A stretch of 56,340 nucleotides of DNA, from NCBI GenBank assembly GCA_905182785.1, contig CAJJDF010000004.1, positions 1-56,340 of the forward strand, in the 5' to 3' direction. Shown in pieces: positions 26,807 through 40,120 of this stretch. The first letter of the stretch is position 1; each line of letters opens with the position of its first letter. The DNA is from an uncultured Flavobacteriales bacterium (GTDB taxonomy: Bacteria > Bacteroidota > Bacteroidia > Flavobacteriales_D > CAJJDF01). The position numbers and the translations under genes were made by a program. The notes under the pieces are model-generated. The model ran no database searches. It had not been told where the DNA came from and was given only the letters and a program-made list of their open reading frames with translations.

Positions 26807-28120
26807 CTAGTATCTGTAATGTTCTGGCTTGAATGGCCCGTCAACCGTTACACCAATATAGTCAGCTTGTTCTTTAGTTAATTCTGTAAGCTCTACTCCT
26901 ATTTTTGCAAGGTGTAATTTAGCTACTTTTTCATCTAAATGTTTAGGCAACATATATACTTCGTTTTTGTCGTAAGCATCCAAGTTAGTCCATAATTCGA
27001 TTTGAGCTAAAGTTTGGTTAGCAAATGAGTTACTCATCACAAATGATGGGTGACCTGTAGCACAACCAAGATTTACCAATCTTCCTTCTGCAAGTAAGAT
27101 GATATCTTTACCGTCTAAATCGTAAATGTCAACTTGTGGTTTTATTTCAGTCTTTTTGAAATTATCATTCAAATAAGGTACATCAATTTCGTTATCAAAG
27201 TGACCAATGTTACAAACGATAGTTTTGTCTTTCATTGCTTGAAAGTGCTCAGCTCTTACGATATCTTTGTTACCAGTAGTAGTTACTACGATATCCGCTT
27301 CTTTTATTGCATTTTCCATCGTTTTTACTGCGAATCCATCCATTGCTGCTTGTAGTGCACAAATTGGGTCAATTTCAGTAACGATAACTCTTGCTCCAGC
27401 TCCTTGTAAAGAGGCAGCAGATCCTTTTCCAACATCTCCGTATCCTGCAACAACAGCAACTTTTCCAGCCATCATGGTGTCAGTAGCTCTTCTGATTGAA
27501 TCTACTAAAGATTCTTTACATCCGTATTTGTTATCAAATTTAGATTTAGTAACAGAATCATTTACGTTAATTGCTGGCATTACCAACGTTCCGTTTTTCA
27601 TTCTTTCGTATAATCTGTGAACTCCTGTAGTAGTTTCTTCAGATAAACCATTAATTCCTGCAGTTAACTCAGGATAATTATCAAATACCATGTTAGTTAA
27701 ATCTCCACCATCGTCCAAAATCATATTAAGAGGTTTTCCTCCTTCAAATCCTTTAATAGTTTGGTCGATACACCATTCAAATTCTTCCTCGTTCATTCCT
27801 TTCCAAGCAAATACTGGCACTCCAGTAACAGCTATTGCAGCAGCAGCTTGATCTTGTGTAGAAAATATATTACAAGATGACCAAGTTACTTCAGCTCCAA
27901 GTGCAGTTAAAGTTTCGATCAATACAGCAGTTTGAATTGTCATGTGAAGACATCCTGCAATTCTTGCTCCTTTAAGAGGTTGAGATGCACCAAATTCTTC
28001 TCTGATAGACATTAAACCTGGCATTTCAGATTCTGCTAATCTTATTTCTTTTCTTCCCCACTCTGCCAAAGTAATATCTTTGACTTTGTAAGTTTCAGTG
28101 TTGTTTTTTACTTCGCTCAT
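26807..28120 (-). CDS. ahcY: Adenosylhomocysteinase
   Basis: A 437-residue S-adenosylhomocysteine hydrolase (SAH to adenosine and homocysteine, NAD-dependent). [35 protein letters not shown], the NAD-binding [14 protein letters not shown], and the C-terminal [10 protein letters not shown] are all characteristic. It is full length and is the enzyme that relieves SAH inhibition of methyltransferases, two of which are in this window. It shares a divergent promoter with the phosphopantetheinyl transferase gene. Confidence 0.97.
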
Positions 28121-28183: not shown

Positions 28184-28822
28184 ATGCCTAAATCTACCCT
28201 TACTTTTCACTCTAGCATTCACTTGTGGGACATTACCGAGAGCTTCGAAAACCTTTGCGAAATAACTAACCTAACCGAAGAAGAACGTGATATTGTGGAT
28301 TCATTTAGAAAAGTTTCGCGAAAGAAAGAAATACTTGCTTCTCGTGCTTTATTGCAATCTATAATTCCTGATGGACACATCCACTATATAAATAAAAACC
28401 CTCAGTTGACTGATTTGGATAAAGAGATTTCTATCAGTCATACGGACAATAAAGTAATGATTCAGATAAAAGAAGGAGGTGAATTGTGCGGAGTTGATGT
28501 TCAAGAATTATCGGAGAAAGCTACTCGAGTTAAAACTAAATTTCTTAGTCCTAAAGAAATGGAAATAGTAGATCTTCATCCTCTCAATAACTTAACGCTT
28601 TCTAACTTACTTTGGTCTGCTAAGGAAACTGCTTTTAAAGCTTTCGCTTCCGTTTGCCAACAAATAGAAGTGATAGAGTTTAAAACACAACTCTTAACGG
28701 ACGAGATAAATGAAGAAGAAAACCAGATTACAGGGCATTTTGTAGAGAGGAATAGTAGAACTTCTTTTACTTTAGGGTTTTCTATTCAAGAAGATTGTGT
28801 GGTTACTTGGTTTGAGAAGTGA
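28184..28822 (+). CDS. 4'-phosphopantetheinyl transferase superfamily protein
   Basis: A 212-residue protein of the Sfp/AcpT type that transfers the phosphopantetheine arm of CoA to carrier proteins. ISISHTDNKVM, CGVDVQ (Mg2+ Asp) and LLWSAKETAFKA (catalytic Glu-Lys) occur in order. I chose the ATG at 28184, because upstream in-frame codons lie on the shared promoter. It is opposite ahcY and shares no obvious pathway with it. The target carrier protein is not in the window. Confidence 0.88.
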   Translation: MPKSTLTFHSSIHLWDITESFENLCEITNLTEEERDIVDSFRKVSRKKEILASRALLQSIIPDGHIHYINKNPQLTDLDKEISISHTDNKVMIQIKEGGELCGVDVQELSEKATRVKTKFLSPKEMEIVDLHPLNNLTLSNLLWSAKETAFKAFASVCQQIEVIEFKTQLLTDEINEEENQITGHFVERNSRTSFTLGFSIQEDCVVTWFEK

Positions 28823-28823
28823 T

Positions 28824-28936
28824 TTATTTCTTCTCCCTAAATAATTTTAAAGAAAACTTACCAAAACAAAAGAAAAAGAACAAAATTATTGCTGATGAAA
28901 ATAGTATTATTATAAATCTAAAGGATCGGATTCTAA
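28824..28936 (-). pseudogene. Remnant 3' end of a small membrane-protein gene
   Basis: On the minus strand this reads a hydrophobic stretch followed by FGKFSLKLFREKK and a stop, nearly identical to the C-terminus of the gene at 29975-30256. Over the last 13 codons the copies differ by two synonymous changes and one extra Lys codon. There is no start codon; the 5' portion is missing and the LamG gene stands where it would be. Confidence 0.6.
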
Positions 28937-29884
28937 CTATTCTTTAATAATTTTTTTTGAAATTCTTAAATCTCCTGATTTATCTGAGATAACAGCATAA
29001 TAAATTCCGTTTGTAAATTTTGAAATATCAATTTCATTTTCTGATGTAGTAACAATCAATTCACCCAAACAAGAATAAATTTCAATTTTATTTATTATAA
29101 AATTTGATGAAAATATAAATCTACCATTGGACGGATTTGGAAAAATTGTTAAATCAAATTCTTTTTCAACATCTTTAATTCCTGCAGTTTGAACTTTTTT
29201 ACATAGTGCGGACATTTCTGATTGATTTAACAAACGGTTATATATTCTAACTTCATCAATTAAACCTGAAAAATAATGTTGCGAAGGACTATTTGTGTTA
29301 TTAAAACCGATAACCATTGGCTTACTATTAACTAAAGATGGAGATGTAGTAGCAGATGTATAGCTTAATGCCAATTCGCAATCTACCCAAACTTCCCATG
29401 TATTTCCTGCCACAAGCCCCATGACATGATGCCATTTATTATCATTTACTGGCTTAATAGTACTCATATTATTTATGTAATTTCCACTTCCATTCCTTCC
29501 AGAAAAACCAACAAACCCATTATTAAGATTCAAATGATATCCAGCATCAACAATAAAATCATATTTTGTTAAAATAAACATAATACCAGATAAATTAGTT
29601 TTTACCCAAGCACTAACTAAAACTGTATCTACAACATTTCTATTACTTGAACCTAAATTAACTTCAGAATTAATCCCGTTAAAACTAAATGAATTATTAC
29701 TATTGCCAAAAACCCCATTTGCTAGTGTTGTATTACTACTAACACCATTTATAGCTGTTACACTTGAATCATTCGCATTTCCTGAAAAGGGAAAAAAACC
29801 ATACAATCCATTAGTTAAATTAATTTGTCCAACTACACTTATAGTTAGAGTTGAAATTACGAAAGAAATAAAATACTTTTTCAT
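28937..29884 (-). CDS. LamG-domain secreted protein with T9SS type A sorting signal
   Basis: A 315-residue protein: signal peptide (MKKYFISFVISTLTISVVGQ), a LamG/concanavalin-like jelly roll (about residues 25-220: LYGFFPFSGNANDSS, DTVLVSAWVKT, KWHHVMGLVAGNTWEVWVD, GLIDEVRIYNRLL), and a C-terminal sorting domain (about residues 240-315: FDLTIFPNPSNGRF... KFTNGIYYAVISD ... KKIIKE). It is thus probably exported by the type IX system and surface-attached, binding a glycan or protein ligand not readable from sequence. It sits between two copies of the tail of a small membrane-protein gene. Confidence 0.88.
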   Translation of the reverse strand: MKKYFISFVISTLTISVVGQINLTNGLYGFFPFSGNANDSSVTAINGVSSNTTLANGVFGNSNNSFSFNGINSEVNLGSSNRNVVDTVLVSAWVKTNLSGIMFILTKYDFIVDAGYHLNLNNGFVGFSGRNGSGNYINNMSTIKPVNDNKWHHVMGLVAGNTWEVWVDCELALSYTSATTSPSLVNSKPMVIGFNNTNSPSQHYFSGLIDEVRIYNRLLNQSEMSALCKKVQTAGIKDVEKEFDLTIFPNPSNGRFIFSSNFIINKIEIYSCLGELIVTTSENEIDISKFTNGIYYAVISDKSGDLRISKKIIKE

Positions 29885-29974
29885 CTGAATTTTTAAATTA
29901 TACCGAACGAAAAATATACTATATATTTTTTATGATCAGCTGTTTATGCAAACCTAACCTTTTTGTAATCACAT

Positions 29975-30256
29975 TTATTTCTCCCTAAACAATTTCAAAG
30001 AAAACTTACCAAAAAACAAGAATAAAAACACTACAAGTAATCCACCCAATACAAATCCGTTTTGTAGAATAGCTTCAAAAGAGTAATTAACAAGCAACAA
30101 AATAATTGCAATTACAAATTGTAAAACTCCGTAAGCTATATTTCCTTTGTGACTGTAACCAAACAATCCTAAATAGCGAACTTTGGCAATTCCCAAGATA
30201 AAATGAGGCATTGCATTGGCTATTAGAGCTCCTATGATAAAATCAATTAAATTCAT
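29975..30256 (-). CDS. Small membrane protein
   Basis: A 93-residue protein with about three hydrophobic segments (MNLIDFIIGALIANAMPHF, a central LQFVIAIILLLV and a C-terminal GGLLVVFLFLFFG) and a basic tail FSLKLFREK. I do not recognise a family. The ATG at 30256 is one base past the NYN stop; an alternative ATG six codons upstream would overlap that gene by 17 bases. A diverged copy of its last codons lies at 28824-28865. Confidence 0.7.
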   Translation of the reverse strand: MNLIDFIIGALIANAMPHFILGIAKVRYLGLFGYSHKGNIAYGVLQFVIAIILLLVNYSFEAILQNGFVLGGLLVVFLFLFFGKFSLKLFREK

Positions 30257-30257
30257 A

Positions 30258-30986
30258 CTACTTATTTCTAACATAAATCAACTTAATATTCCTGTTCCCT
30301 TTGGAGGATTCTCTGTGGTCCAATTCAAAATTTGATATAGATTTTATAAGGGGTGTTAATTTCAAAAAACCATAATTTCTTGGATCAAAATTAGGCTGTT
30401 TCTTTTGTAATAAATTCCCTACATCTCCCAAAAATGCCCAACCATCATCATCCGACAAATCATTTATGGTGGTAGAAATTAACTGAATAACCTTTGGAGT
30501 TACTTTATCTATGTTTACTTTTTCTTTCGGTTTACCTTCCTCGTCTTCCTTAGATTGAGACTTTAATATTTCGATATAGATAAACTTATCGCAAGCCACC
30601 ACAAAAGGCAATGGAGTCTTCTTCTCTCCTATTCCGTAAACTTTCTTACCTGCTTCTCTTAATCTGGTAGCTAGTCTTGTAAAATCACTGTCACTGGATA
30701 CAATACAGAATCCATCTACTTTTCCTGAATACAATACATCCATAGCGTCAATAATCATTGCCGAATCGGTTGCGTTTTTTCCTTTAGTGTAAGCGTATTG
30801 TTGAATTGGAGTAATTGCATTCTCTAACAAAACGTTTTTCCATTTTGTTAATCCAGGATTAGTCCAATCGCCATAAATTCGCTTAATTGTAGGATTCCCA
30901 TATTTGGCAATTTCCTCCATCATTTCCTTTACGTATGCTGATGGAATGTTATCTCCATCAATTAATACCGCTAAATTATTTTCCAT
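30258..30986 (-). CDS. NYN-domain nuclease-like protein with LOTUS/OST-HTH domain
   Basis: A 242-residue protein. Residues 1-140 form a NYN (PIN-like) domain: LAVLIDGDNIPSAY, ATDSAMIIDAMDVLYSG, SSDSDFTRLATRLREAG, with the acidic residues expected for a metal-dependent RNase (LabA/DUF88 type). Residues about 165-240 resemble a LOTUS/OST-HTH winged helix (KVIQLISTTINDLSDDDGWAFLGDVG... NYGFLKLTPLI), an RNA-binding module. It therefore likely acts on RNA. It is at the tail of the bat operon with unknown relation. Confidence 0.85.
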   Translation of the reverse strand: MENNLAVLIDGDNIPSAYVKEMMEEIAKYGNPTIKRIYGDWTNPGLTKWKNVLLENAITPIQQYAYTKGKNATDSAMIIDAMDVLYSGKVDGFCIVSSDSDFTRLATRLREAGKKVYGIGEKKTPLPFVVACDKFIYIEILKSQSKEDEEGKPKEKVNIDKVTPKVIQLISTTINDLSDDDGWAFLGDVGNLLQKKQPNFDPRNYGFLKLTPLIKSISNFELDHRESSKGNRNIKLIYVRNK

Positions 30987-31019: not shown

Positions 31020-31280
31020 TTAAAAACTTGGCTTATATTCACTTCTGTCTGTTTTCACAATCTTAAGCAAGAAAATACCTGCTTCCACTAATTCCAAAGA
31101 GTTTTTAATCTCTTTGTTTAGCAAAGTCATTACTTCGTCATATTCTCCATACACCTGAGTACTTAAAGGATTTTCAAGTACTACCAATCCTGATTCACGC
31201 ATTTTCTTAATGAATGCTTTTATTGGCGGTTCATAATCGTTTTGTAAAGGTGTACAGGTTAATTCTACTGATATTTTCAT
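31020..31280 (-). CDS. Thiamine-binding-type (MTH1187/YkoF-like) protein
   Basis: An 86-residue protein beginning MKISVELTCTPLQNDYEPPIKAFIKKMRES, with an alternating beta-alpha pattern of the MTH1187/YkoF thiamine-binding fold (ferredoxin-like). I chose the ATG at 31280; the frame runs 19 codons further upstream into repeat-like non-coding sequence that overlaps the batC 3' end. Members bind a thiamine-like ligand; the role is uncertain. It occupies the place where batD usually follows batC. Confidence 0.75.
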   Translation of the reverse strand: MKISVELTCTPLQNDYEPPIKAFIKKMRESGLVVLENPLSTQVYGEYDEVMTLLNKEIKNSLELVEAGIFLLKIVKTDRSEYKPSF

Positions 31281-38505: not shown

Positions 38506-39351
38506 ATGTTTTTAACAAAAGAAGATTTAGAAAGTCTAAAAACTAGAGAAGACATTATAAAACTAGCTGAAGAAAAAAACTTTAAGTTGGAAAAATACTT
38601 ATGGGATTTAGATTACGAAAAACAGCTGAAGAAATTACAAGGGGAACTTGTAAATTTACAAAAATGGATTTCTGATAATAAGCTAAGAGTTGCTATTCTA
38701 TTTGAAGGAAGAGATTCTGCCGGAAAAGGAGGAGCAATAAAAAGATTTACTGAACATTTGAACCCTCGTTCTATGAGAGTTGTTGCTCTTTCAAAACCAA
38801 CTGAAGTTGAAAAAGGACAGTGGTATTTTAGACGTTATATTAAGGAATTACCCAACCCAGGGGAAATAGTTTTCTTTGACAGAAGTTGGTACAACCGTGC
38901 CGTAGTAGAACCTGCTATGAGTTTTTGTTCGGAGGAACAATACAAACAATTTGTACTGCAAGTACCCGAATTTGAACACATGCTTTACGAAGATGGAGTT
39001 ACGGTTATAAAATTTTGGTTTTCCATTACCAAAGAAGAACAAGCAAAAAGATTTGCTTCTAGATTAGAAAACCCACTTAAAAGATGGAAATTTAGTCCTG
39101 TTGATCAAGAAGGACAAAGACTTTGGAATGAATATACTCATTACAAAGAACAAATGTTTTCTAAAACTCACACTGATTTTAGTCCTTGGATAATTATTAA
39201 AACAAACGACAAAAGAACGGCAAGGCTAGAAGCAATGCGCTATGTTCTTTCGAAATTTGATTATGCTGAAAAAACCAATATAAAAGCAAATTTATTACCC
39301 GATCCAAATGTAGTTGCTCGGTATTACAGACATTTAAAACAATTTGATTAA
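38506..39351 (+). CDS. ppk2: Polyphosphate kinase 2
   Basis: A 281-residue PPK2 family protein. Walker A FEGRDSAGKGGAIKRF (about residues 66-81), lid GQWYFRRYIKELP, and Walker B FFDRSWYNRA (123-132) are present. PPK2 enzymes use polyphosphate to phosphorylate nucleotides (NDP to NTP or NMP to NDP depending on class). It is the first gene of a three-gene run with a second PPK2 and a MazG-like gene. Confidence 0.93.
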   Translation: MFLTKEDLESLKTREDIIKLAEEKNFKLEKYLWDLDYEKQLKKLQGELVNLQKWISDNKLRVAILFEGRDSAGKGGAIKRFTEHLNPRSMRVVALSKPTEVEKGQWYFRRYIKELPNPGEIVFFDRSWYNRAVVEPAMSFCSEEQYKQFVLQVPEFEHMLYEDGVTVIKFWFSITKEEQAKRFASRLENPLKRWKFSPVDQEGQRLWNEYTHYKEQMFSKTHTDFSPWIIIKTNDKRTARLEAMRYVLSKFDYAEKTNIKANLLPDPNVVARYYRHLKQFD

Positions 39352-39352
39352 T

Positions 39353-40120
39353 ATGGAATTAACAAACAAAGATGTAGAAATACTAAACACAAAGATTGGG
39401 CTTAAGAAATTGATTGCTAATAATGTAATTGATTTAGAAAAATCTCTAAATGCAACCAAGTACGAATTGGAATTGAGAGGTCTTCAAGAGCAATTAATTA
39501 ATTTACAAGAAAGGGTAATTAAAAACCACGAAAAAGTGGTTGTGATTTTTGAAGGAAGAGATTCTGCTGGAAAAGGGGGAGCAATTAGAAGAATTACTTC
39601 TCGTATAAATCCTAGGCATTTTAGAATTATTGCGCTACCAAAACCCTCATTTGAAGAAGAAGGTCAATGGTATTTTCAAAGGTATGTAAACCATTTACCA
39701 AATCCTGGAGAAATCATATTCTTTGACAGAAGTTGGTATAACCGAGCAATTGTTGAGCCTGCTATGGGATTTTGCACCCAAGACGAATACAAAAAATTCA
39801 TGACTCAGGTAAATTTATTTGAACAAATGTTTACCGATTCTGGAATTAAATTAATTAAATTGTACTTTTCAATTACAAAGGAAGAACAAGCAAGAAGATT
39901 TAAAGAACTGGAAAATGATTCATTAAAAAAATGGAAATTATCGCCTGTAGATATTAAAGCGCACGAACTTTGGGACGAATTTACAGAATACAAAGAAGCC
40001 ATGTTTAAAAAAACGGACACAGAGCAATGTCCATGGAAAATTATAGACGCCAACAAAAAAAGGCCTGCAAGAATAGAGGCTATTAAATATTTACTAGAAC
40101 AAACTAACATTACAGAATGA
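39353..40120 (+). CDS. ppk2: Polyphosphate kinase 2, second copy
   Basis: A 255-residue PPK2 paralogue with the same motifs (FEGRDSAGKGGAIRRI; FFDRSWYNRAIVEPAMGF). It starts one base after the stop of the first copy, an apparent tandem duplication, but has diverged considerably, mainly in the N-terminal 35 residues and the lid. Specialisation for different nucleotide substrates is possible. I chose the ATG at 39353 over an overlapping TTG. Confidence 0.92.
   Translation: MELTNKDVEILNTKIGLKKLIANNVIDLEKSLNATKYELELRGLQEQLINLQERVIKNHEKVVVIFEGRDSAGKGGAIRRITSRINPRHFRIIALPKPSFEEEGQWYFQRYVNHLPNPGEIIFFDRSWYNRAIVEPAMGFCTQDEYKKFMTQVNLFEQMFTDSGIKLIKLYFSITKEEQARRFKELENDSLKKWKLSPVDIKAHELWDEFTEYKEAMFKKTDTEQCPWKIIDANKKRPARIEAIKYLLEQTNITE

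Follow-up and report, generated by a model that had tools for sequence, protein, structure and literature searches.

In the window, by which we mean the whole stretch of 56,340 nucleotides analysed here, the end of a small membrane-protein gene is present twice in the same orientation, and an intact gene coding for a predicted secreted surface protein lies between the two copies. The locus appears to be the readable scar of a gene acquisition, an event of a generally known kind. We consider it probable, at roughly 60%, that one recombination event inserted the surface-protein gene at the 3' end of the membrane gene and left a second tail behind. What is seen directly is the two tails, the intact gene between them, the lack of such a gene at this spot in relatives, and the larger number of changes in one tail, copy 1.

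The repeated tail of the membrane gene

All genes of the locus proper are on the minus strand. They are, in the direction of transcription, a Thiamine_BP-like gene (hereafter ThiBP; 31020-31280; PF01910 at 22.7 bits, below the cut-off of 24.9), an NYN-OST-HTH gene (30258-30986), the adjoining gene for the small membrane protein (29975-30256, 93 aa), the LamG gene (28937-29884, 315 aa, identified by domain matches), and finally a lone tail. The membrane protein matches no Pfam or NCBIfam family over cut-off. Its in-place 3' end, with 2 further nt, is hereafter called copy 2 (29973-30030, minus strand), and the lone tail, an orphan remnant of such an end, copy 1 (28822-28882, minus strand); both were delimited by the repeat alignment. 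Copy 1 is convergent with a 4'-phosphopantetheinyl transferase-type (PPTase) gene (PF01648, 28184-28822, plus strand): its TAA (28824-28826) is 1 nt away from the PPTase stop TGA (28820-28822). The next gene beyond PPTase is SAHH (26807-28120). From the list of open reading frames, the LamG gene is the only plausible gene between the tails. A sequence-only reading of this DNA had placed a LamG/T9SS gene between two tails of the same orientation, and this is borne out.

The same reading had reported that the last codons of the membrane gene recur, which alignment confirmed. Without gaps, the direct repeat is 52 nt long (28831-28882 and 29979-30030) and 88% identical; allowing for one in-frame 3-nt gap, it extends over 61 columns with 85% identity (28822-28882 and 29973-30030). 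It covers about 18 final codons of the membrane gene, stop included, that is the last 56 nt and 2 nt more. Over the final codons, GKFSLKLFREK(K)*, the copies differ as had been described, by two synonymous changes (TTG/TTA twice) and one added Lys codon. Just upstream, four amino-acid differences and one further synonymous difference are found.

This repeat is far beyond chance. Its local score is 74, about twice the maximum of 38 reached in 2000 first-order Markov resamplings of the downstream DNA. We also took a census of 752 gene ends, which came from the window and from 76 stretches of this genome; ends close to a stretch border and ORFs lacking a start were excluded (hence two loci discussed below, L221 and L187, are absent from it). 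There, the end of the membrane gene ties with a locus called L188 for the top score, 77, the 99th percentile being 36. Chance similarity of the tails is ruled out by both results. That the tail might be a common motif of unrelated proteins, a possibility left by the sequence-only reading, is ruled out as well: a 26-base tail pattern, searched with up to 3 mismatches, matches only two places in the genome, which are the two copies, and no third one. In the sister genome G001, its one match is the single membrane gene. Genome G002 has one 3-mismatch match, at another place in the genome. The other 17 of the 20 genomes searched, this genome aside, have none. Among these relatives (20 genomes), none was found with a second tail. 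Neither an Rfam family nor a terminator-like site was found at the tails.

The likeness stops sharply. It ends 2 nt beyond the stop codon, where unrelated downstream sequences begin, and on the other side nothing of a second membrane-gene body is detectable beyond the ~60 nt of tail. The frame upstream of copy 1 had been described as open and hydrophobic. It is indeed open for 36 codons, but the likeness of its residues to the membrane protein is not significant, the same level being reached by 10% of shuffles. This "hydrophobic frame" is therefore no evidence of a longer duplicate, and its reading as the remnant of a whole gene is unsupported. Given also the end at 2 nt past the stop, what is repeated is a tail, with no recognisable duplicate gene.

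We then asked which of the two copies had changed, by comparing both with G001 at the 7 sites that differ over 17 codons. Five of the seven sites were resolvable and two were not; at all five, copy 2 agrees with G001. Copy 2 thus looks like the conserved end and copy 1 like the drifting one, as expected for a remnant, five sites being few for this comparison. Copy 1 keeps its reading frame, so that its decay is not proven. The codons AGG GAG are common to both copies and different in G001; the copying was therefore later than the split from G001, or from a nearer donor.

The LamG gene and its spot in relatives

In the 315-aa protein, the start resembles a signal peptide (by eye). The protein also contains a lectin-like LamG/ConA-like domain (Laminin_G_3, PF13385, E 6.6e-19), and its C-terminus matches both Por_Secre_tail (PF18962, 40.6 bits for a cut-off of 27) and the T9SS type A sorting domain (TIGR04183, 36.6 for a cut-off of 23). 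These domains mark it as putative T9SS type A cargo, and a predicted secreted surface protein. Its matches to phage families come through the LamG part only. The gene has a GC content of 28%, compared to 34-36% for the NYN, PPTase and SAHH genes. This is weak evidence, because GC is also low in the membrane gene (30%), in the window (32%) and in the DNA beside 30 other T9SS tails (32%, s.d. 3%).

Five other genomes of the family, G001 to G005, were compared. None of the five family genomes has a LamG orthologue, the strongest match (G004) having an E value of 1.5e-20 and 33% identity over residues 63-224. More broadly, LamG/T9SS-like matches occur in 74 of 79 other genomes, the strongest being 31% identical and from another family.

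In G001, which belongs to the same genus, ThiBP, the NYN gene and the membrane gene follow each other, with one tail and no LamG gene beside it; the next gene is one we take to be SelO. The membrane protein of G001 is 75% identical to that of the window. A different T9SS-type ORF (by eye) lies more than 8 kb away on the same contig. The PPTase gene was not found in G001, whose genome is 90% complete. Since only 3 other genomes of the genus were available for comparison, and G001 is without a findable PPTase gene, the exact empty site was not seen.

The other side of the spot is informative in G002 and G003, where ThiBP and PPTase are neighbours, separated by gaps of 320 bp and 25 bp, respectively, and where the NYN and membrane genes were not found. 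ThiBP is then the other edge of a variable spot in these two genomes. The G002 gap (L097 1112-1360, G002:C22) contains an 82-codon stretch, open from stop to stop. It matches, at 59%, the C-terminus of a long surface protein encoded in G002 itself, and at 52-60% sequences of G004 and G005; the C-terminal position of the match was read in one G005 locus. The stretch is probably the 3' remnant of a surface protein, and the ThiBP-PPTase spot may well be a place of repeated gene gain and loss. The NYN and PPTase genes of G004 and G005 are on separate contigs. Beyond ThiBP, the window has TPR and VWA ORFs, presumably Bat-type genes, and G001-G003 have a lipoprotein-type ORF (by eye).

The NYN gene is too widespread to inform on the locus. 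The membrane gene is patchy: a search of 399 genomes of the order found it in 9, counting this one, which fall into two genera. Within the genus, it adjoins the NYN-OST-HTH gene in two genomes (29975-30986 in the window; G001 has the same pair). In the other genus of the order it is beside other genes, presumably AlkB-like and NmrA-like ORFs, and no NYN gene was seen in the loci read. In none of the 8 other genomes with a strong match does a LamG gene come after the membrane gene (flanking ORFs within ~1.5 kb, by eye), and a search for a donor in 7 genomes of another family revealed, by eye, no LamG-type gene beside it.

The gain of a foreign gene is thus indicated by the lack of an orthologue in the family, and by the lack of the LamG gene both on the membrane-gene side in G001 and at the ThiBP-PPTase spot of G002 and G003. 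Comparison with relatives, which the sequence-only reading had proposed as a check, favours insertion, and the arrangements found would fit it, as far as few relatives allow.

A probable single insertion and its alternatives

We propose that incoming DNA paired with the conserved tail of the membrane gene. Homology ending at the stop codon would be expected if the paired DNA had the gene in common with the recipient and not what lies downstream. A circular molecule could have entered by one crossover, or a molecule with homology on one side could have been joined illegitimately on the other; both routes yield the order gene, insert, tail in one step and leave the gene whole. The membrane gene would emerge complete, ending in copy 2, with the new gene coming next, and copy 1 would be left beside PPTase, outside any gene and drifting. 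The single event, the donor and natural transformation as the route are what we infer here. ComEC and DprA domains, present in this genome (and in 10 and 11 of 14 control genomes, respectively), permit transformation and do not demonstrate it. Some 60 nt at 85% identity are short for ordinary homologous recombination. A product of homology-facilitated illegitimate recombination would be expected to show homology to the recipient at one junction only; here the tail homology was found, and the genomes compared include neither the donor nor the empty site of this species.

This process has been proposed for T6SS effector-immunity arrays of V. cholerae (PMC5361080) and for vgrG loci of P. aeruginosa (PMC11751169); its frequency in the species tested is given as orders of magnitude below that of ordinary homologous recombination (PMC5361080). 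Incoming genes in T6SS loci would be, as we propose here, anchored by homology at one gene end (PMC5361080, PMC11751169) and joined without homology at the other, an old piece remaining downstream in V. cholerae (PMC5361080). The present locus differs in its leftover, which is the orphaned end of an unrelated membrane gene, in its cargo, a surface protein with a T9SS tail, and in its homology of ~60 nt. Circular intermediates have been proposed for the recombination of rhs tips, where laterally acquired DNA also displaces a gene 3' end and dissociated tips remain (PMC2935791). In rhs, however, the new C-terminus is an alternative one (PMC2935791), whereas the two tails described here encode nearly the same residues and the product is restored. 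The merodiploids of S. pneumoniae likewise have partial duplications, there resulting from transformation, but these are tandem duplications of ~100 to ~900 kb formed by repeat pairing (PMC3784515), compared to a tail of less than 100 nt here. A narrow literature search found nothing on tail scars beside T9SS genes.

Two repeated tails may also be explained if the membrane gene, or its end alone, was first duplicated in tandem, the LamG gene was then inserted separately, and nearly all of the second copy was lost. Tandem paralogues do exist elsewhere in the genome, where a duplicated YifB/protease junction with a gene between is also found (L188, below), and the AGG GAG codons shared by both copies and not by G001 suit a duplication made after the split as much as copying from a nearer donor. 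We nevertheless find this unlikely: two or three events are needed, the duplicate has to end just past the stop codon, and a second copy recognisable beyond the tail was not found. For the same reasons (nothing beyond ~60 nt, no duplicated flank), the suggestion of the sequence-only reading that the T9SS gene had replaced the 5' part of a tandem duplicate is not supported. Recombination at the gene end, the other possibility it offered, best explains the data.

The order of events may have been different, with LamG already following the membrane gene and a later join bringing in PPTase together with an old tail. Gene order is unstable beyond ThiBP when the window is compared with G001-G003, but for such a rearrangement PPTase must once have had a second membrane gene next to it, since lost. 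In G002 and G003 no membrane gene accompanies the adjacent ThiBP and PPTase genes, and we regard this order of events as very unlikely. More improbable still is a site-specific or transposon-like integration at the gene end, in which the tails would be attachment-site or target-site copies of a small non-autonomous element. Direct repeats flanking a single gene, at the end of a target gene left whole, are what it would produce. Yet the interval between the tails shows no integrase or transposase ORF, inverted repeats there are short and imperfect, the 1.5-kb stretch occurs once in the genome (with one 26-base match elsewhere), and the tails differ by 15%, when attachment or target repeats should be near-identical. 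Moreover, the repeats at the other scars of the genome, to which we now turn, look unrelated in sequence (by eye).

Similar scars in the genome and their meaning

The genome has 69 matches to PF18962, 68 of them over cut-off. Gene pieces repeated apart from their gene were sought in 49 stretches around PF18962 matches (512,959 bp) and in 27 PF18962-free controls (492,293 bp). They were found in 3 of the 49 T9SS stretches (L168, L187 and L188) and in one of the 27 controls (L221). The two sets are of similar total length, and no enrichment near T9SS genes is shown. At the protein level, the census gives no fragment match in the window and so misses its own tail, which the DNA-level census finds; it is therefore insensitive to short tails.

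The control stretch L221 (168-3355; G000:C27, from 18800) contains a TonB receptor gene, a secreted-type ORF (called by eye, with no Pfam match), a partial ORF related to the latter, and a copy of the receptor tail. This copy corresponds to the last ~30 codons of the receptor; it is decayed, holds an in-frame stop, and ends exactly at the stop codon. Its anatomy seems like that of the window. In L187 (1-8553; G000:C26, from 7700), the end of an outer-membrane efflux gene and a decayed copy of ~320 nt bracket a five-gene block; the copy adjoins a LamG/N-glycanase-type T9SS gene and ends short of the stop. In L188 (3422-8860; G000:C65, from 21600), partial second copies of YifB-type (Mg_chelatase) and subtilase-T9SS genes are placed around an unrelated ORF. 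As L188 repeats the YifB-protease junction and L168 the 5' region of a gene, only L187 and L221 resemble the window.

Other candidates were set aside. In the protein census these were adjacent diverged ORFs, tandem families or split frames (L149, L150, L159, L186 and one row of L187; among controls, three rows of L215, and L217). L160, with a score of 63 in the gene-end census, is an adjacent pair of related ORFs, L180 a repeated tRNA-like sequence (by eye), and L159 and L172 have terminator-like repeats (by eye). L196 and L211 have an intergenic repeat each. In the window itself, two adjacent genes (38506-40120), which we take to be PPK2-type, share 70% DNA identity over 544 columns. Around the NYN gene in other genomes (80 loci, 763,818 bp), 16 repeat pairs were found, in 2 of which one copy lies within an ORF and its partner outside any ORF: L017, which looks like a dispersed repeat, and L088.

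One clear case and a few less clear ones make no rule yet. It would be a larger claim, and to us a distinctly unlikely one, that surface and secreted genes arrive repeatedly in this flavobacterial-type lineage by tail-anchored insertion, using short homology at the conserved 3' end of a gene, sparing the host gene, and leaving each time a datable orphan tail. If this were true, orphan tails would be a genome-wide record of surface-gene turnover; unless they prove to be such a general mark, the interest of the locus is modest. For the window, the scar suggests how an accessory surface gene came in while its neighbour stayed intact, and orphan tails of this kind could reveal gains of T9SS genes directly, whereas comparing presence and absence is otherwise the only approach.
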